Below are positions 5,886 through 56,221 of a stretch of DNA of 57,460 bases, in pieces. How positions within the stretch are numbered: position 1 is the first letter of the stretch; each line of letters begins with the position of its first letter. Below the pieces are notes generated by a model that saw only the letters and a list, made by a program, of their open reading frames with translations, ran no database searches and was not told where the DNA came from. Origin of the DNA: Alphaproteobacteria bacterium (GTDB taxonomy: Bacteria; Pseudomonadota; Alphaproteobacteria; Rhodobacterales; Rhodobacteraceae); assembly GCA_016869875.1 (NCBI GenBank), contig VGDE01000002.1:1-57460 (forward strand), given 5' to 3'. The position numbers and the translations under genes are program-made.

Positions 5886-6093
5886 CGGTCACTGATGAAA
5901 ATCAGTTGGTTAAGCGCGCAATCCTTCACAGAACCTTCCTTATTTGCCAACAAAAACTTCCTCAGGCGAGGGCAAGGCCTGCAGTCAGCATTATCGGTTA
6001 TCAGTCCAAATCGACATCGCAGGTGTCAGCAACCGATCAAGTTGTCTTCGGCTACCTGGAGGCAGAGCCCATAGACCACTATCCAGGCTTTGA

Positions 6094-6693
6094 CTATTCC
6101 AGCACCCGGCGGATCTTGGGCACCGCATATCGGGGATCTTCATGATGATCGATGATGTTGGCAAAACGACCGTCTGCGTTGAACAGAAAGACGCCTGCCG
6201 TATGGTCCATTGTATAGTTATCCTCGCTCTGCACTTTCCGGAACGTGGCGCGGAAGTCGGCAGCAGCCTGTTCTATCTGAGGCAAGGTTCCGGTCAGGCC
6301 GGTGATCCGATCATCGAAGTTTGACAGGTAGTCGCCCAGTACCTCGGGGGTGTCGCGCTCGGGATCAACGCTAATGAGGACCGTGTTAAGGTGATCCGCA
6401 TCGGGACCAAGCTCTTCCAACCAGTCAGAAATGGCGCTCAGCGTCGTCGGGCAGATGTCGGGACACCATGTGAAGCCGAAGAAGACCATTGTCGGTTGGC
6501 CTAGCCAATCAGCCGCTTCCACCGTGTCTCCGTGCTGATCCGTCAGCGCAAAAGACATCCGGTCAATGGGCAAAGGCAGGGTTCCTGACGGGGCCTCGTC
6601 TGAATGGCGGCTTTGCCACCAGCCCAGGCCAAGCATGAACACCACCGCCCCTGTGCTCAAGGCTCCGGCTTGCAGCAGCGTCCTTCGCTTCAT
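6094..6693 (-). CDS. SCO1/SenC family copper chaperone
   Basis: FFGFTWCPDICPTTL motif, DPERDTP, signal/TAT-like N-terminus. Confidence 0.92.
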   Translation of the reverse strand: MKRRTLLQAGALSTGAVVFMLGLGWWQSRHSDEAPSGTLPLPIDRMSFALTDQHGDTVEAADWLGQPTMVFFGFTWCPDICPTTLSAISDWLEELGPDADHLNTVLISVDPERDTPEVLGDYLSNFDDRITGLTGTLPQIEQAAADFRATFRKVQSEDNYTMDHTAGVFLFNADGRFANIIDHHEDPRYAVPKIRRVLE

Positions 6694-25723: not shown

Positions 25724-27160
25724 CTATTCGTTGGCAATCGTCTTTATTGCATCAATAATAGGCTGAAGAAGGACATGAAGATTATCAACAGGTGTTTGAA
25801 GCGCATTAAGCGATTCTACAAGGGCGGGAGAGAGATTGTCGCTACTGGCAAGCATTTCAGCTGACAGTTCTGCCGCCATCGAACCGGTGGCTCCCACCGG
25901 CAGAGTTACCACGCCTTGGGAAACCGCAATCTCGAACTCCTTTCGCACGCCATCCGCCGGCACGATCCTGCCCTCGACTTCCTTGTTACCAAGAAAGAAC
26001 AAAGCTATGCCCGGTAATGATAGCAATTCCTTGCGGTATCTTTCCCATATAGCAGCTCGCTCTTTGGGATCGGCAATGTCACGTGGAAAAGGCCGAACCT
26101 GAAGGAAATTATCTAGATTGATGTTACGATTGGCGTATGCTTTTTCAATGGCGCCGCTGATCAATGAATTGCCTACGCCAAGCCCGAAGCCGCTTACGAT
26201 CTGGAACTGGTTGTCGATTAGAATTGAGCCGAGGTCGCGGAAGAAGCCATTCACGGCGGTTTCGCCCCACGGATCGAAGTTGCTCGCGCTTCCTGATACA
26301 AAAACCAGTCGCCGCCTATAGTGCTTTTCAATAGTTAGCAGCACCTCAGTAATCTGCTCGAAATCATCTATCTCTAACGCAGTGACATTGTAACGCTTTA
26401 AGTCAGCGACAAAATGACGGTGCCGTGCCTTGGCATAGACAAAATCCTCCTCCGACTTGAAGCTGTCCCGGTGAGGAACTTTCATAAGGCAAAAGTGCTC
26501 ACGCTGCGCATTTTGGTATCGTAGCCTCAGTTGAGACAGAACGTGATCTAAATTAGGATCTGTGAAGCTGAAGCCGATGAACAAGAAAGTCTTGCCGGTA
26601 AGGTCGCCTACCAGGGCGTTTACGAACCCCATGCGCTTATGCCCGTAAGACTCATAGTCGTCGCGAGTGAGCACTGCCTCATTTGGATGCTCAGCATCGC
26701 CGTGCATCTTGTAGACGACAGCATCACGCTTTGGTTTCGTTGTTGGCAACTGACTGTCTACGTGCTTCACGTCTGTGTTCTTACGTGCCCCTTCGAGAGC
26801 CTTTTCAAGCAGCTTGTCGTAGTTCGTGGTCCAGAACGTCTTAATCGGAAGTCTTGCTAGAATTTCGTGGTTCAGTGACGGGCTGGTCATGCTCGGGAAT
26901 GCCGAGATGAGCGCTTCGTTCAAGTGCGCGCGGTTTCCCATCTTGTGGTTGAGAGAGAACTGAGCAAATCTTACAAGATGCTCGCTCTCGCGCTCGATAT
27001 CGAGATCGAGTTCATTGGCGAACGGCGCAAGCAAGGATTTCCAGTTGACGAAGCCGGCCGGAGCAGAAAGACCGGCGCCTGCAAATACCGCTACCGTTCC
27101 GTCGGCCATGTCGCGGGCATATTTTCTGCAGAAAGCGCTCACCGAATTCGAAAGAGCCAT
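25724..27160 (-). CDS. thsA: ThsA-like SIR2-SLOG NADase effector (Thoeris)
   Basis: SIR2 N-terminus (VAVFAGAGLSAPAGFVNWKSLL, TTNYDKLLEKAL, FLFIGFSFTDPNLDHVL) plus SLOG-like C-terminus (LVFVSGSASNFD...IVSGFGLGVGNSLISGAIE). Confidence 0.88.
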   Translation of the reverse strand: MALSNSVSAFCRKYARDMADGTVAVFAGAGLSAPAGFVNWKSLLAPFANELDLDIERESEHLVRFAQFSLNHKMGNRAHLNEALISAFPSMTSPSLNHEILARLPIKTFWTTNYDKLLEKALEGARKNTDVKHVDSQLPTTKPKRDAVVYKMHGDAEHPNEAVLTRDDYESYGHKRMGFVNALVGDLTGKTFLFIGFSFTDPNLDHVLSQLRLRYQNAQREHFCLMKVPHRDSFKSEEDFVYAKARHRHFVADLKRYNVTALEIDDFEQITEVLLTIEKHYRRRLVFVSGSASNFDPWGETAVNGFFRDLGSILIDNQFQIVSGFGLGVGNSLISGAIEKAYANRNINLDNFLQVRPFPRDIADPKERAAIWERYRKELLSLPGIALFFLGNKEVEGRIVPADGVRKEFEIAVSQGVVTLPVGATGSMAAELSAEMLASSDNLSPALVESLNALQTPVDNLHVLLQPIIDAIKTIANE

Positions 27161-49263: not shown

Positions 49264-49299
49264 AGAAGAACGGGCGGCCGAAAGGCCGCCCGTTCTTCT
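49264..49299. terminator. Bidirectional terminator between hns-like gene and virD4
   Basis: AGAAGAACGGGCGGCC-GAAA-GGCCGCCCGTTCTTCT perfect 16-bp stem. Confidence 0.85.
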
Positions 49300-51313
49300 A
49301 TTGGGCTGCTTCCACGGCTGCGCCTTCTCCATCACCTTCTGCCGAAATAGATTTCACCTTCGAGGCAGTATCAACAAGCAATTTGATCGACTCATCATTT
49401 GCTTCAAGAACAGGTGCTTTTTCTTCTGACTTATTAGGATTTCTGCGCCGCACCACGGCTGGCAACGCTTTGACAGGATCACCGTTTGCTGGCGCGGCTT
49501 TGGCTTGTTTCTTCTCCTCAGGCGAGACTAGAACAATTGACTTGAGAGCAGATTTGACACGACTGCGCCTCTTACCACCCTCTTTGATTTTGTCTGTCAG
49601 TTCATCTAGCCGATGGGTGGTTCTGACAAGATCTCCGCGCAGGTCACGAATTTCAGCATCCTTCGGATCAGGTGCGGGCAGTTGACCCTTTTGCGCCAAG
49701 AAGATGGGTTTCAGCGTCCTGTCGTCAAAATACTTGATCCGACGCGCCTGGATGGGGTGCTGACCATTGGCAAGGATGATCACCGTGTCCTCGTGCAGCC
49801 TGCCGGCTTCGTCCTCGGTCAGAAGATCGCGGTCCTCGCTCCGTTCGGATATATTGATCCCCGAGAAAGGCCCCTTTCCGATGGTCTTGGACTTTGACGT
49901 AACGCGGTGTGTGGTCTTGCCGACCGCAGCGGACAGCTCCGACTTCGTGCGCTGCTCGGATGGGGCGAGATAGATCTTCACACCGGCACCACCTTGCAGC
50001 GACAGGCGGGTGTCCTCGCCATAAATCTTGTCCAGCGCCGGGATGGTCTGAGTGACGATTGCCAGATGCCCGCCGTAAGCGCGCAGGGTCTTGATACTGT
50101 CCGTAACGCTCGGCATGCGACCGAGCATGTCGAACTCGTCCAGCATGATCATCACGGGCCAAGGTTCGTCCTTGCCCGGAAGATGATCGTGCAGGCTGGA
50201 CAGCAGGTCCGAGAAGAACAGCCGAACTAGTGGTGCAACGGCCCGGATCTTGTCATGGGGCGGTGCCACAAAATATGCTGTCTGCGGCGTGCGGCGGAAA
50301 TCATGAAAACTGAAATCGCTTGTCTCGGTCGCCCGGTCAATCGCAGGGTTAGACCACAGACTGAGGCCTGAAGTCATCAGCAGCGACAGATAGGAGGTCA
50401 GGGTGCGATCATTGGTCGAGGCAAGCCGCTCGAACATCAGACGTGCAGCATGGCTTTGCACCTTGTCGGCATAGGACAGATACTGCTTCTGCTTGTCTCC
50501 CCCTGCCGATGCCAAGCGGTAAATCTCGCCCAGAGTCGGGGTGCCGCGTTCAATTGCAAAGATACCGCAGGCCACGAACAGGTCGATACCGCCGTCCAAC
50601 AGACCCTTTGCGCTATCGTCCTCGGTCTGCAAGAACAGTTCGGCCAGCAGGCGTATTTCCATTTGCCGCTGATCCGGGTTCGGAAGCGCATTGATCCGGT
50701 CCAGAGGATTATAGCGATGGCTGTTGCCGCTCCAATCCAGCGGCGCGAAACGCCAGATTTTGTCGCCCATGGATCGACGGTGACGGCTGGTCAGTTCGAA
50801 GTTCTCGCCCTTCACGTCCAACACAACGGCACTGCCCTGAAACAAGAGAAGGTTCGGAATAACAAAGCTGATGCCTTTACCTGCGCCCGTGGGTGCGACC
50901 AGGAGGCAGTGAGGAAAAGATGCCGAACACAGAAATTTCGCCCTGCCCTTCGGTGAGCCAAGTTTACCGACAACAAACCCTTGGCCGGGTTTCTGGAAAA
51001 ACTTATTGGCTTTCAGTTCGCGGCGGCTTTGCCAATGGGCGCGGCCGAAAGTGGTCAAGCCCTCTGTGAGTACCTTGGCAGAAAACAAAAGCGACAGGAT
51101 AATAAATCCGGCCCAGATCAGGTTCAAAATCTGGAATGCTTGCGGGTCGTTATGCTTGATTGCGAAGTAACCGGTCGCGATCCAAGTCCAATCCAGATAT
51201 TGCCCATTGAAGCCGTAACGGAACGACAGAAAGCCAGTTCCGACGACATAGGCGAAGCCAGTGGCGATGAGGGCGAACAACAGGACGCCCCCAAAAAGAC
51301 GCAGTTTATTCAT
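49298..51313 (-). CDS. virD4: Type IV coupling protein VirD4/TraG
   Basis: CLLVAPTGAGKGISFVIPNLL, VMIMLDEFDMLGRMPSV. Confidence 0.93.
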   Translation of the reverse strand: MNKLRLFGGVLLFALIATGFAYVVGTGFLSFRYGFNGQYLDWTWIATGYFAIKHNDPQAFQILNLIWAGFIILSLLFSAKVLTEGLTTFGRAHWQSRRELKANKFFQKPGQGFVVGKLGSPKGRAKFLCSASFPHCLLVAPTGAGKGISFVIPNLLLFQGSAVVLDVKGENFELTSRHRRSMGDKIWRFAPLDWSGNSHRYNPLDRINALPNPDQRQMEIRLLAELFLQTEDDSAKGLLDGGIDLFVACGIFAIERGTPTLGEIYRLASAGGDKQKQYLSYADKVQSHAARLMFERLASTNDRTLTSYLSLLMTSGLSLWSNPAIDRATETSDFSFHDFRRTPQTAYFVAPPHDKIRAVAPLVRLFFSDLLSSLHDHLPGKDEPWPVMIMLDEFDMLGRMPSVTDSIKTLRAYGGHLAIVTQTIPALDKIYGEDTRLSLQGGAGVKIYLAPSEQRTKSELSAAVGKTTHRVTSKSKTIGKGPFSGINISERSEDRDLLTEDEAGRLHEDTVIILANGQHPIQARRIKYFDDRTLKPIFLAQKGQLPAPDPKDAEIRDLRGDLVRTTHRLDELTDKIKEGGKRRSRVKSALKSIVLVSPEEKKQAKAAPANGDPVKALPAVVRRRNPNKSEEKAPVLEANDESIKLLVDTASKVKSISAEGDGEGAAVEAAQ

Positions 51314-53168
51314 GTCCGCCTCCCTCATGCCCGCGTTCCTGACGAACCCGGTCCCGCTCGGCGGTCAGCTCGTCGCTCACGCGGTCGATGCCATGCTGTG
51401 CGGTAGGATCGTCGCTAACGCGCAAATAATCCCGTGCAAGGGTCAACTGGTCCTGCCGATCCCCAACGCCTCGCAGAACCTCCGCGTCGCCGTTCTTGAG
51501 CGCCGCCAGTTCCTCGCGGGTCAATGCCCGCTCGATGGCCTCGCGCAGCCGGCGTTCATCCTCTGCACCAACTGGATTGGCATACCGCGTAAGGTCGGAA
51601 TGATCGCGGCCCTCGCCATCACCCGACCCGATAGACGTAACCGGCGCCCTCTCCTGCGCATCGACCTCGCGGATACGCTCGATCTGCGCGGCGGTATCAT
51701 GGCCCGGTTCGGACGTCTCGATTGCCGCACCACGCTGTGCAGCCGCGCGCTGATAAATGGCATCATCGACACCATAGTCTGCCGCCACTCGATCATAGGC
51801 AGCATCGACAACTTCAATGGCCTGTTGCAGCTGTGCCTCGTTGCGAAGATCGAGCCCGCGCAGGTCGGCCACGCTTTGCAGGTCCTGCTGAACCCAACGG
51901 GCTTCCAGCGCCGCGGAATTGGCAGCAACGCGCATCCGGGCCTCGACTTCGACAGGATCAATGCCGGTGCCATCCAGCGCGGCATTCAGCTTGTCGCGAC
52001 CTTCCAGCGCAAAGCGCGTGTTCACTTCCTGAACGTTCTGCGCAGAGTAGATGCCTTCCTCGCTGGCCGCTTCGCTCAAATCGCGAGACCGGGCACCAAG
52101 CGGTTGCAAATGCTCGACCGAGGACAGCGCCTCGGACAGCTGGCGTTCCATCGCCGGGCGCTGGTTCGGGGCAGCGTCAGTAATTCTTACCTCAGCCTCA
52201 TCGACAGCGAGCCTTAAGTTGGCTGCGGCTTTGTCAAAATCCTCTTGGACAGACATGTAAGGTTCTCCTTTGGATACAATGACGCCGCCCTGGGACAGGA
52301 CGGCTGATGCCTTCTCAAATGCGGTCGTCAGATCCTGCAAATTTGCTTGCGAGGCATAGCTCGCCAAGTCGCGATAGCGCAGGGACCAGTCGCGGACTTC
52401 TTCGGTGGCACTGATCAGCGCGTTACCGGTTCGAGGCTTTCCCGCAGGAGCCTCGAAGGCAGTGCCTGTCGTCACTGCCTTTTCCTTCGCCCGCAGCCAC
52501 TCGGCATCGGTGGGGGCGTGATTGATATGCCCGCGCTGCAAACGCGTGGTGGCTTCAAGCTGAAGGCCATAGCGTTTGGCGTGATCCACCATGGCCTCCT
52601 TGAAGGCTTGATAGGTGAATTCGGTGCCCTGACGGAGTGTGAAATAATCCCCCGGTTCCCTGCCCCGCCGATTGACGATGATATGGGCATGCGGGTTTTT
52701 GTTCGGGCTGTCGGTATGAACGGCAATCATGTAATCGAACCGACTGCCAAGCTTTTCCCTACAGATTTCTCCGGCAATCAGGCTGACATGCTGCGGCTTG
52801 GCATTGCGCGGAAACGACATAACCATATGGCTTGTTCGGGCCGCATTCATCTGCCCTTTCCAGTCATCGGCCCAACGCGACACGGCCCGCTCGATCTGAT
52901 CGCCTGACAAGCGCTTCTGGCCATCCAGCAATCCGCGTGAATCATGCACATCAACACTTTTGCTGAACAGGTAATTGAATTGGGCCGATAGCTGTCCCTT
53001 CGATGAACACCCACCCGTGCGGATCATCTTGAAAATGGCCGGGGATGCGCCTTGTGCCGCCCGTGCCATATGCCGTGCATTGCGAAGCCCTCCGCCTCCG
53101 CCGATCTTTTCCCAACCGTCTTCAAAAAGCCTGGTGGAAACACCGGCAACAGCATTAGTCCACCCCAT
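51306..53168 (-). CDS. MOBP/VirD2-type relaxase
   Basis: YMIAVHTDSPNKNPHAHIIVNRRG HxDxxxxxPHAH motif; overlaps virD4 and MobC-like gene. Confidence 0.92.
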   Translation of the reverse strand: MGWTNAVAGVSTRLFEDGWEKIGGGGGLRNARHMARAAQGASPAIFKMIRTGGCSSKGQLSAQFNYLFSKSVDVHDSRGLLDGQKRLSGDQIERAVSRWADDWKGQMNAARTSHMVMSFPRNAKPQHVSLIAGEICREKLGSRFDYMIAVHTDSPNKNPHAHIIVNRRGREPGDYFTLRQGTEFTYQAFKEAMVDHAKRYGLQLEATTRLQRGHINHAPTDAEWLRAKEKAVTTGTAFEAPAGKPRTGNALISATEEVRDWSLRYRDLASYASQANLQDLTTAFEKASAVLSQGGVIVSKGEPYMSVQEDFDKAAANLRLAVDEAEVRITDAAPNQRPAMERQLSEALSSVEHLQPLGARSRDLSEAASEEGIYSAQNVQEVNTRFALEGRDKLNAALDGTGIDPVEVEARMRVAANSAALEARWVQQDLQSVADLRGLDLRNEAQLQQAIEVVDAAYDRVAADYGVDDAIYQRAAAQRGAAIETSEPGHDTAAQIERIREVDAQERAPVTSIGSGDGEGRDHSDLTRYANPVGAEDERRLREAIERALTREELAALKNGDAEVLRGVGDRQDQLTLARDYLRVSDDPTAQHGIDRVSDELTAERDRVRQERGHEGGGHE

Positions 53169-53733
53169 TGCTGTTCCCTTTCATTCCTTCGACAAAACGG
53201 CGAACCGTATGGGACGCGCGCTTGCCCTCGATCTCGCGCACGATCACCGACACGCCGTCGATGTGATCAAGAAGATCAGCCAGAAGCTGCTGCTGCGGCT
53301 TGGTGAGCTTCAGCTTCTGACCGCGCCGGACCTCGTAGTTCTTGGTGGCAACGAGCTGGTTCACGTTCCGCCCGAGCGCCGCCAGCTGCACCGCGACGTC
53401 CCGCAAAGCGTCGGCCAGGTCGGGGTCCGGCTCCAGAAAACCGGCTGGAACGCGGCACACGCGGCGCAGCGCATCTGCCCTGCTCTTCAATCCAAGGCGT
53501 CCAGTGAAGGCATCGAACGCCTGAAGACTGGGCCGATCCACCGTGAATGACACCGCCGCCGTGCTGACATCAGCCACGGCTTCCTTGTCGTGGAAGCTGC
53601 GAACGGCGCGATAGATCGTCGGCCGTGTGACACCATAGGTCGTCGCCAGCACCGTCACAGGCACCCCTGAACGGACTGAAGCGGCGATCTTTTTCTCGTC
53701 AGCGGGAGTGAGCTTCTTTGATCTTCCGGCCAT
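53155..53733 (-). CDS. MobC-like relaxosome protein with N-terminal HTH
   Basis: MAGRSKKLTPADEKKIAASVRSGVPVTVLATTYGVTRPTIYRAVRSF; ...LAALGRNVNQLVATKNYEV. Confidence 0.78.
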   Translation of the reverse strand: MAGRSKKLTPADEKKIAASVRSGVPVTVLATTYGVTRPTIYRAVRSFHDKEAVADVSTAAVSFTVDRPSLQAFDAFTGRLGLKSRADALRRVCRVPAGFLEPDPDLADALRDVAVQLAALGRNVNQLVATKNYEVRRGQKLKLTKPQQQLLADLLDHIDGVSVIVREIEGKRASHTVRRFVEGMKGNSNGVD

Positions 53734-53756: not shown

Positions 53757-53778
53757 TTCCATTTCTTGCCAAATATAC

Positions 53779-53841
53779 ACTCTACTATCGCCTTTAAGAC
53801 GATGACTGTCAAGGAAATCGGCTTAAAGGCGATAGTAGAGT
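53779..53841. promoter_or_regulatory. Candidate oriT: perfect 20-bp inverted repeat
   Basis: ACTCTACTATCGCCTTTAAG - 23 nt - CTTAAAGGCGATAGTAGAGT, immediately upstream of mob genes. Confidence 0.6.
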
Positions 53842-54069
53842 TCAATTTGCCGGGACTGAGGGTGCAGCGAAGCCTGCTCCCGAAGAATAGCCCCGGAGGC
53901 CCGCACAAGGCCGACAGAGGGCTAGATCGCACCAGATGGTAGGGTGGCACACCCGGAAGCAAGAAAGGGCACTCAGCGGTCAAAATAGAGGGCCTTATGA
54001 CGCCAGGGGGGCTTTCAACCGCTCACTGCAGCCGATGGGCCTCAAACTGCATCGTGTCATACGGTAGTC

Positions 54070-54217
54070 GTTACCTAACCAGATACCTCAGTGGTTACGT
54101 TACCGAACACGTTACCAGTTACGTTACTCAGTACGTTACAAGTTACGTTAACCGATACGTTACTGAATACTTTACCGGATACGTTACCGGATACGTTACC
54201 GGATACGTTACCTATTG
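54070..54217. repeat. 12-bp direct-repeat (iteron-like) array
   Basis: Nine consecutive 12-bp units 54099-54206 (consensus GTTACcggaTAC) plus degenerate flanking units. Confidence 0.93.
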
Positions 54218-54310
54218 ACATGACGTTGGATGAAACGACACATAAGGGTGAACGAGATACTGACCTGCAAAGTGATCAGGATGACGCAGAGCAACTAAAA
54301 GGAATGACGA

Positions 54311-55078
54311 ATGGCGATTGTGCTTGGACTGATGAGCAAGAAGGGCGGCGCTGGAAAATCTACTATCGTCAAACTGCTTTCATCCTCGATGACCTACACC
54401 GGCCATAAGTGCTTGGTGATTGACCTCGATCCGAACAAGGACATTCTGACTTGGTGGGCTGTCAGTAAGACCAACAACCTCGCAGAAGATAACTTGATCG
54501 TTCGAACTGTTTCTCCTGAAAGGGATTTGTTCGATTTAGTCGACGAGTTCGACGACAAGGTGAAATTTATCATCATTGATACAAAGGGCGAGGGTGTGGA
54601 TTTTGGCGTAGATCTTGCAAGCGTTGCAGACGCGTTGATAATTCCATGCCTCAATGCGAAAGCCGATAGTGACCGAACTAAAGAAACCATCAACTGGCAC
54701 AAAGACCTGAAGGCAAGAGCGGAAGACCCGAGCAGAATTCCTCCACTGCATGTCGTAATGTCCAGGGTCAATCCGAAGCTATTGACCCATGTTAAAGGAA
54801 CGCCCAAACCAGATGGAGTCGGCGTAAGGGAATTTGAGAGACATTACGAGATAATAAACCAGCTCGATCCGCTTGATATCATGATCCCGGAAAAGCCGAT
54901 TTATCAGGAGATAGAAGAGCGGGGAACCCTCGGGATGATTATAAAGGAACATAGGGAAAAGACTGACGCATCCTCAAAAATGAAGTTGCGCCATTTCGAA
55001 GCAGCTATGGCACTGGCAATATTGCTAGGAAACTGCATTTTTGAAGAACGCAAAATGAGTAAAGCAAATGGCTCGTGA
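54311..55078 (+). CDS. ParA/VirC1-like ATPase
   Basis: MAIVLGLMSKKGGAGKSTIVKLL; IIIDTKGEGVDFGVDLASVADALIIPC; IYQEIEERGTLGMI. Confidence 0.8.
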   Translation: MAIVLGLMSKKGGAGKSTIVKLLSSSMTYTGHKCLVIDLDPNKDILTWWAVSKTNNLAEDNLIVRTVSPERDLFDLVDEFDDKVKFIIIDTKGEGVDFGVDLASVADALIIPCLNAKADSDRTKETINWHKDLKARAEDPSRIPPLHVVMSRVNPKLLTHVKGTPKPDGVGVREFERHYEIINQLDPLDIMIPEKPIYQEIEERGTLGMIIKEHREKTDASSKMKLRHFEAAMALAILLGNCIFEERKMSKANGS

Positions 55079-55811
55079 ACGAATAAAAGTTACCCGTGCA
55101 GACTCCACAGGTTTTGATGAGGTTGTCAAACCCGTTCGGGACCGTTCCGACTACACAACCCTGAAAGTAGATGCTATCGAGGCGTTCGAGAATAAAAGAA
55201 AAGCGTCTGATAAGGGGAGTAAAACCAAAGACCAGTCGCAGGAAGATGAAGTTAGTGCAAAAGCCGATACTGGCTCCGTAGAAATACCAAAGCCAGCAAC
55301 TCATGTTCCCGATGAGTCTGAAGATAAGGCAAGCCTGTCGCAGCCAGCTAAGAATGCCAGAGTTGAAGCACCGACAAAACCCAAAGGCAGCGACAATGTA
55401 GAGGCAGACACCGAAGCGAACACACTTCTTGACCTTGCCTTACCTCCACGTCGCAGAGCTGATGGGTATATCAATTTGTCTTTGAGGCTTAGAGTTCTTG
55501 AGCGTCATGTTGATGCCCTGAAAAGCCTTGAGGATAACGGTATTGATGTAAGTGATGTTTTTCGTGTGGCTTACCGTAGCCTGCCGACCGTTGATTTCAG
55601 TCCTCACTATGTTCCCCAGGTCGCAGAACCAAGCGGACCAGGAAAATACGCTTATCGCGTAAGACCAGCGGTGAGACAGCAAACCATATCAGCCATCGAA
55701 AAACAGGTCAGGGGAGGGGCGAATGCCTCTCGGGCCAGTCTCCTGCTGGGTCAGATAGAACCAGCTTGGTTTGCAAAACTGGACCTTGTTATCAAGGAAT
55801 TCACGAAATGA
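55068..55811 (+). CDS. RHH-type partner protein (VirC2/ParB-like)
   Basis: Disordered N-terminus, C-terminal DGYINLSLRLRVLERHVDALKSLEDNGIDVSDVFRVAYRSL; overlaps the ParA-like gene. Confidence 0.6.
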   Translation: MARERIKVTRADSTGFDEVVKPVRDRSDYTTLKVDAIEAFENKRKASDKGSKTKDQSQEDEVSAKADTGSVEIPKPATHVPDESEDKASLSQPAKNARVEAPTKPKGSDNVEADTEANTLLDLALPPRRRADGYINLSLRLRVLERHVDALKSLEDNGIDVSDVFRVAYRSLPTVDFSPHYVPQVAEPSGPGKYAYRVRPAVRQQTISAIEKQVRGGANASRASLLLGQIEPAWFAKLDLVIKEFTK

Positions 55812-56221
55812 TAGATCGTCTGGTATCCACTCTTACTACACTTCTCGTCATGTCTGCTCCGGCATCCGCTTGGCAGCATACAACCGACTTTCGTGGTCTT
55901 GAAATCTACGACTACGAAGCGGACGGCATAGACATGCAAGTCATCTGCGACCCTAAAGGCGCTTTCATACCTCCAATCTACTCTGCACGAATAGAATTTG
56001 GAGAAGACGACTATGAAGGCGAGGTCACTCTGCAATCGGGTGAAGCGTCTTTCATCTTCCAAATGCGATACGGCAGCGTATTGCCAAGTGATGCGGCAAG
56101 TTGGACGTCGCTAATCGAAGGTTTGCGCAGCGGATCTGAGTTGACCCTTACTGCTGGAGATCAGACTTTGCAGTTGGATACGGTTTCGCCGTTCCCCGTT
56201 ACCTGCGGTGCAAAGATTTGA
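55808..56221 (+). CDS. Small secreted hypothetical protein
   Basis: Signal peptide MIDRLVSTLTTLLVMSAPASAW; overlaps the upstream stop. Confidence 0.55.
   Translation: MIDRLVSTLTTLLVMSAPASAWQHTTDFRGLEIYDYEADGIDMQVICDPKGAFIPPIYSARIEFGEDDYEGEVTLQSGEASFIFQMRYGSVLPSDAASWTSLIEGLRSGSELTLTAGDQTLQLDTVSPFPVTCGAKI

Follow-up and report, generated by a model that had tools for sequence, protein, structure and literature searches.

A lineage-specific tandem repeat array between oriT and a VirC1-like operon in Paracoccus and related plasmids: a candidate binding site for a VirC2-like protein

On one whole contig of a draft genome (57,460 bp, here called the window), a tandem array of 12-bp units lies between a candidate origin of transfer (oriT) and an operon for a ParA-like ATPase. 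What such repeats serve at this position, and which protein might bind them, is of some consequence, as knowledge of where and how the transfer proteins VirC1 and VirC2 act rests largely on one short enhancer in Agrobacterium. An earlier sequence-only reading of this DNA had proposed an overdrive-like or centromere-like transfer element. Here the array is compared with the corresponding region of related loci; the genus-mates in the comparison are Paracoccus.

Genes flanking the array

The features of the region are as follows.

49298-51328, minus strand: VirD4-type coupling protein (Pfam T4SS-DNA_transf, E 2.7e-82)
51306-53168, minus strand: MOBP relaxase with a MobA/VirD2-like nuclease domain (Pfam Relaxase, E 1.6e-11)
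53158-53733, minus strand: MobC/VirD1-like DNA-binding protein, conserved beside nic (NCBIfam VirD1, E 9e-7, under the cut-off)
53760-53771, plus strand: predicted nic block CATTTCTTG^CCA, from an alignment of 18 Paracoccus-type loci plus pMOS2
53779-53841, unstranded: oriT hairpin, arms 53779-53803 and 53817-53841, loop GACTGTCAAGGAA
54060-54212, plus strand: 12-bp tandem array, core TACGTTAC, core unit TACGTTACnnnn, best copies at 54096-54212
54215-54220, plus strand: likely -35 box (TTGACA) of the parA operon, immediately 3' of the array
54311-55078, plus strand: ParA/VirC1-like ATPase (Pfam VirC1, E 5.2e-12)
55068-55811, plus strand: C2, with an N-terminal peptide, a disordered linker and a predicted C-terminal double beta-alpha-alpha (RHH-type) domain
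55808-56221, plus strand: third operon gene, following C2 (137 aa, predicted exported)

To the left of the array are thus the hairpin, the nic-like block and, in divergent orientation, the genes for the MobC/VirD1-like protein, the relaxase and VirD4; the TTGACA box, the ParA/VirC1-like gene, C2 and the third gene are to its right. The overlap of the ParA-like gene (54311-55078) with C2 (55068-55811), pointed out previously, is confirmed. The VirC1-like character of the ATPase is supported by a match to Pfam VirC1 (E 5e-12) at 46 bits, over the cut-off of 24. This assignment holds at family level only, because the ATPase reaches 44.5 bits against the NCBIfam VirC1 equivalog, far under the cut-off of 313; its NCBIfam ParA_partition match is also under the cut-off of that model.

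The third gene is kept after C2 in most Paracoccus-type loci and lies near 3 of the 26 wider (Rhodobacteraceae) loci. Its product has two conserved cysteines and the motif CDPxGAFIPP, occurs also in L046 and L047, and gave no family match. Elsewhere in the window, the gene at 25724-27160 combines SIR2-like and STALD (SLOG) domains and resembles an anti-phage defence protein.

The 12-bp array

Tandem Repeats Finder (TRF) reports 54096-54212 as an array of 12-bp units (9.8 copies, 79% matches, score 127), and a repeat search extends its register to the left as far as about 54060. For period 12 the best segment scores 45.2; the highest value at any period in 500 dinucleotide shuffles is 12.6, and the highest non-array periodicity within the window reaches 22. 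The core TACGTTAC occurs seven times in the window, every time inside the array and on one strand only, and the double unit TACGTTACNNNNTACGTTAC has no copy elsewhere in the draft genome at up to two mismatches. The array at 54060-54212 is therefore real and far beyond chance, and the nine 12-bp-spaced units of the sequence-only reading are borne out. A CRISPR was considered and rejected, since spacers are absent and the 12-bp units are contiguous.

The same reading had described the unit as partly palindromic and had taken this as a sign of half-sites for a ribbon-helix-helix (RHH) protein. This argument is not supported: CCGG is confined to the last units of the array, and the conserved core TACGTTAC lacks a palindrome. 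An inner similarity at lags of 5+7, 4+8 or 5+8 is seen within the unit of most Paracoccus arrays, and would suit two contacts per unit.

The origin of transfer

Alignment of the 18 Paracoccus-type loci reveals a block, GTGTAAAAAATTACA...CATTTCYTGCCA, that lies next to the gene for MobC. Within the conserved sequence, CATTTCYTG^CCA is found at one fixed place, adjoining the MobC and relaxase genes. The VirD2/IncP nick type is YATCCTG^Y, and the block in the window appears to be a MOBP-type site that matches it, with the predicted nick between 53768 and 53769. The candidate oriT of the sequence-only reading accordingly gains a conserved nic block.

The inverted repeat noted there is also found, as a hairpin that starts 10 bp past the putative nick and whose 25-nt arms (53779-53803 and 53817-53841) pair at 24 of 25 positions, the outer 20 bp perfectly. 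Where a long stem is found in relatives, the arm sequences vary while complementarity is retained, mostly around TGTCAA; the hairpin is therefore kept as a structure. Its loop in the window carries TTGACA on the minus strand, perhaps the -35 box of a mobC promoter. A 42-bp copy of the nic block, without the hairpin, is present at 2800-2841 of L016 (plasmid pMOS2 of P. marcusii, NC_019319.1), a 6.4-kb MobV plasmid, and is possibly an oriT mimic permitting mobilisation in trans.

Provided that the strand, assigned by analogy, is correct, the leading region on the transferred side of nic would contain both the array and the parA operon, which would be the first to enter the recipient.

Arrays in related loci

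Related loci were collected from plasmids, from 125 genomes of the genus and from 397 genomes of the family. C2-like proteins are encoded in 14 of the former genomes and 26 of the latter, the window's own genome being counted in each; one search of genome contigs matched Paracoccus only. For 48 loci an array score was computed, the harmonic periodicity of the 320-340 bp that precede parA. This score is 3.2 or more in 45 of them, and about 19 control intergenic regions from these plasmids score no higher than 2.5. The remaining three (L006, L011 and L038) score 1.6-2.3, with the best period still that of their clade.

The period is 12 or 13 bp in Paracoccus loci, 7 bp in L046 and all 26 wider loci, and 8/16 bp in L047; that of L017, where the slot is of low complexity, is unsure. 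Many of the wider loci are close kin, so the independent cases number perhaps eight to ten. When mapped on the ParA tree the period labels require 7 changes, compared with 19 in shuffles, and the 12- and 13-bp periods interleave within Paracoccus. The period can thus shift between close relatives while the position stays constant. The new result is this comparison across loci: the array is nearly universal in its slot, and its period and unit are lineage-specific. A literature search on VirC1, oriT and tandem repeats returned no account of such arrays in the papers it covered, which is not proof of absence.

Several loci have features of their own. L047, on another contig of the window's genome (G000:C3, 46000-55911), has its own relaxase, a MobC-like gene, an array of about 25 units, a ParA, a C2-like protein and the third gene, every one of them strongly divergent from its counterpart in the window. 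The plasmids pFER2 (L101) and p60130 (L104), of 50 and 60 kb, are without RepAB, and replication or partition genes are not evident in them beyond this operon. On two plasmids of one P. marcusii strain (L007 and L008, both at 6060-6190) the same 12-bp array stands beside oriT and the parA and C2 genes are lost; L007 retains the first 20 codons.

Direct repeats of such length look like replication iterons, and a Rep protein might be thought to bind them. Iterons were rejected on account of the slot, the linkage to C2 and the presence alongside RepABC: the repeats go with C2 and ParA on plasmids both with and without RepABC, there is no adjoining Rep gene, and the slot is always that from nic to parA. 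We regard an origin of replication here as barely credible.

The array might also be a dedicated operator that only autoregulates the parA-C2 operon and has no part in transfer or partition. In most loci it directly adjoins a TTGACA -35 box, and TTGAC follows at a comparable distance in 16 of 22 Paracoccus-type loci and in 23 of 26 wider ones. However, the arrays of some relatives run to dozens of units and over 300 bp, which exceeds the needs of an operator, and L007 and L008 retain theirs after loss of the operon. An exclusively regulatory role is thus improbable.

VirC1-VirC2-type plasmids

When the whole class was searched with Pfam VirC2, L116 yielded a member (65 bits); searches of plasmids added operons of the VirC1 type from Roseobacter, Phaeobacter and Acuticoccus. 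Wherever VirC1 was tested, it matches strongly (292-396 bits). The Pfam VirC2 cut-off is exceeded in L116 and L117 alone; the match is weak in L119 and L120, and L118 and L121 have none. All six plasmids carry VirD1/MobC, nic, an 8-bp array and the VirC1-VirC2-type genes in this order, and their arrays score 3.8-15.3, above every control, L120 being the weakest. The nic position reads TATATCCTGCCA or TATATCCTGCT, with TATATCCTGC as the core. VirD4, VirD2 and VirD1 divergent from VirC1-VirC2 is an order common to the window and L117-L121 (VirD4 of L117 falls outside the stretch read). The layout proposed for the window, with a VirC1/VirC2-like pair, is therefore the one found in plasmids with VirC1-VirC2-type operons.

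The C2 protein

C2 proteins share an N-terminal peptide, MARERIKxTRxDATGF, followed by a variable linker and a C-terminal domain. AlphaFold2, run on nine sequences, models this domain as two beta-alpha-alpha units (pLDDT 88.7), a predicted fold that would amount to the RHH topology repeated twice. A single-sequence model of full-length C2 was poor (pLDDT 48.6) and was discarded. Foldseek of the domain model against the PDB gave no significant match and is given no weight here; chains of the F relaxosome, which ranked first, and VirC2 (2rh3), at a non-significant E of 3.9, appeared only in the range E 0.56-3.9. A C2 profile found nothing among PDB sequences, and the Pfam and NCBIfam VirC2 models did not match C2 of the window or its relatives.

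Profile-profile comparison with hhalign connects the Paracoccus C2 to the C2 of loci with heptad arrays (98.9%), and heptad-type C2 in turn to VirC2 (88.5%, E 3e-6), with reversed controls under 1%; Paracoccus C2 compared directly with VirC2 is null (0.4%). C2 may thus be a distant homologue of VirC2 through an intermediate family. Because the links run via heptad-type C2 and the two ends are not joined directly, it is named VirC2-like and not VirC2. As to the RHH/VirC2-like character previously suggested for 55068-55811, the double beta-alpha-alpha model and the remote link speak for it, and a direct Pfam, NCBIfam or hhalign match to VirC2 was not obtained.

Which protein the array follows

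Distances between arrays (k-mers) were compared with distances between proteins at 17 loci by Mantel tests. The correlation is highest with C2 (r 0.56-0.63), followed by ParA (0.45-0.52), the relaxase (0.40-0.47) and MobC (0.37-0.49). When the MobC-like helix-turn-helix protein is controlled for, C2 retains a partial r of 0.45-0.46 (p 2e-4); with ParA controlled for, the MobC/relaxase side retains 0.16-0.28, a leftover that is expected because of linkage. Two loci illustrate this pattern. In L037 the relaxase is 89% identical to that of the window and ParA 51%, and the array is of a 13-bp CAGACAT type; in L033 ParA is 89% identical and the array is 12-bp TTACC. Array sequence seems to follow C2 better than it follows the relaxase side, a correlation under linkage and not a proof of binding.

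These data bear on whether the array is part of oriT proper, where either the relaxase or the MobC/VirD1-like protein would bind it. MobC-type proteins bind oriT DNA, and the array is less than 300 bp from nic. However, both proteins are conserved (76-81% mean identity) while the arrays are wholly different, and the array tracks C2 more closely. We consider binding by either protein very improbable.

A proposed role at oriT

We suggest that the array is probably the binding site of C2, forming a centromere-like platform at oriT through which the VirC1-like ATPase would act on the relaxosome. The analogues are StbA/StbB at the oriT of R388, VirC1/VirC2 at overdrive, and RHH ParB proteins, which switch on ParA only with several contiguous repeats. 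Several C2 proteins, each with two predicted RHH units, would coat the tandem repeats beside nic, and their N-terminal tails would engage the ATPase. The ATPase would then bring the relaxosome into position, or activate it, so that transfer can proceed by way of the VirB/VirD4 channel, the C2 coat serving to couple the relaxosome to positioning. The array directly adjoins the operon's -35 box, and for this reason bound C2 would probably repress its own operon too, making the array an operator as well. That the repeats are nearly always present and vary by lineage in length and sequence suggests a general docking site that ties DNA processing to positioning in plasmid transfer.

The main competing explanation is that the array is chiefly a partition centromere: C2 would be a ParB-type RHH protein, ParA would segregate the plasmid, and the proximity to oriT would be incidental or serve establishment in the recipient. 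A ParA, an RHH protein and repeats upstream of the operon make up the layout of RHH-type par systems such as the pSM19035 heptads (PMC9499535). The operon's ParA is the sole annotated one on pFER2 and p60130, and rapid divergence of array and C2 would fit incompatibility sorting, as for ParR of C. perfringens (PMC9426499). Against this, pCP157_05 also carries RepABC with its own RepA and RepB, L116 has a RepA-like ParA nearby, and the ATPase matches VirC1. Moreover, a relaxase is linked in every locus where this is visible, and adjoins ParA in 24 of the 24 wider loci whose contig extends that far. Transfer is favoured because the link to oriT is constant and a sister plasmid also has RepABC, and a mainly partitioning role seems rather unlikely; on pFER2 and p60130, which are without RepAB or another annotated ParA, partition could nevertheless be the main role.

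If the arrays are the natural sites of VirC1/VirC2, then repeats and their binding proteins come as matched pairs on dozens of harmless marine and soil plasmids, and the binding code, the spacing rules and the division between transfer and segregation become directly testable. More tentatively, and with somewhat more doubt than confidence, a nic-to-ATPase array might be ancestral and near-universal in alphaproteobacterial VirC1/VirC2-type systems, its period shifting (7, 8, 12, 13 bp) in step with changes in the double-RHH protein, and overdrive might be its relocated remnant.

Comparison with known systems

In Agrobacterium, a ParA-type VirC1 and an RHH VirC2 are encoded in one operon beside VirD1, VirD2 and VirD4, an arrangement like that of the VirC1-like ATPase and the predicted RHH-type C2 here. 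Overdrive acts in cis to promote processing at a VirD2-type nick, as the array may do. Overdrive lies outside the T-DNA right border. In the present loci, by contrast, a long periodic array without a fixed period stands beside a plasmid oriT, on what appears to be the transferred side, and C2 is too diverged for Pfam VirC2. Of the overdrive-like transfer element originally proposed, the oriT, the VirC1-like ATPase and the layout hold, and the predicted side of nic does not correspond. VirC1 binds overdrive, and VirC2 interacts with VirC1, VirD1 and VirD2 (PMC4285021; PMC8716806).

StbA of R388 binds 9-bp repeats beside oriT, StbA and StbB control conjugation and stability, and the stb genes are reported to be in the leading region, entering the recipient first (PMC3098194). 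Like stbABC, the window has, in what would be its leading region, short direct repeats by oriT, followed by an operon that encodes a ParA-like ATPase together with a protein that, here, is predicted to bind DNA. The likeness is one of layout: StbA is encoded before StbB, the stbDRs form two sets of five 9-bp repeats, and NCBIfam TraL, a relative of StbB, gives a weak match (16 bits).

The delta-omega/heptad parS system of pSM19035 has a ParA, an RHH protein and contiguous short repeats, and the arrays of most Rhodobacteraceae loci compared here also have 7-bp units. Four contiguous heptads are required before an RHH ParB activates its ParA (PMC9499535). Unlike such par systems, the present one is linked to oriT and the relaxase, has a predicted double RHH per chain and coexists with RepABC on at least one plasmid. 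Finally, the T-DNA transfer stimulator sequence of the Ri plasmid reportedly consists of 8-bp repeats. These are said to stimulate transfer by a VirD2-type nick, as proposed for the array, but are located at a T-DNA border.
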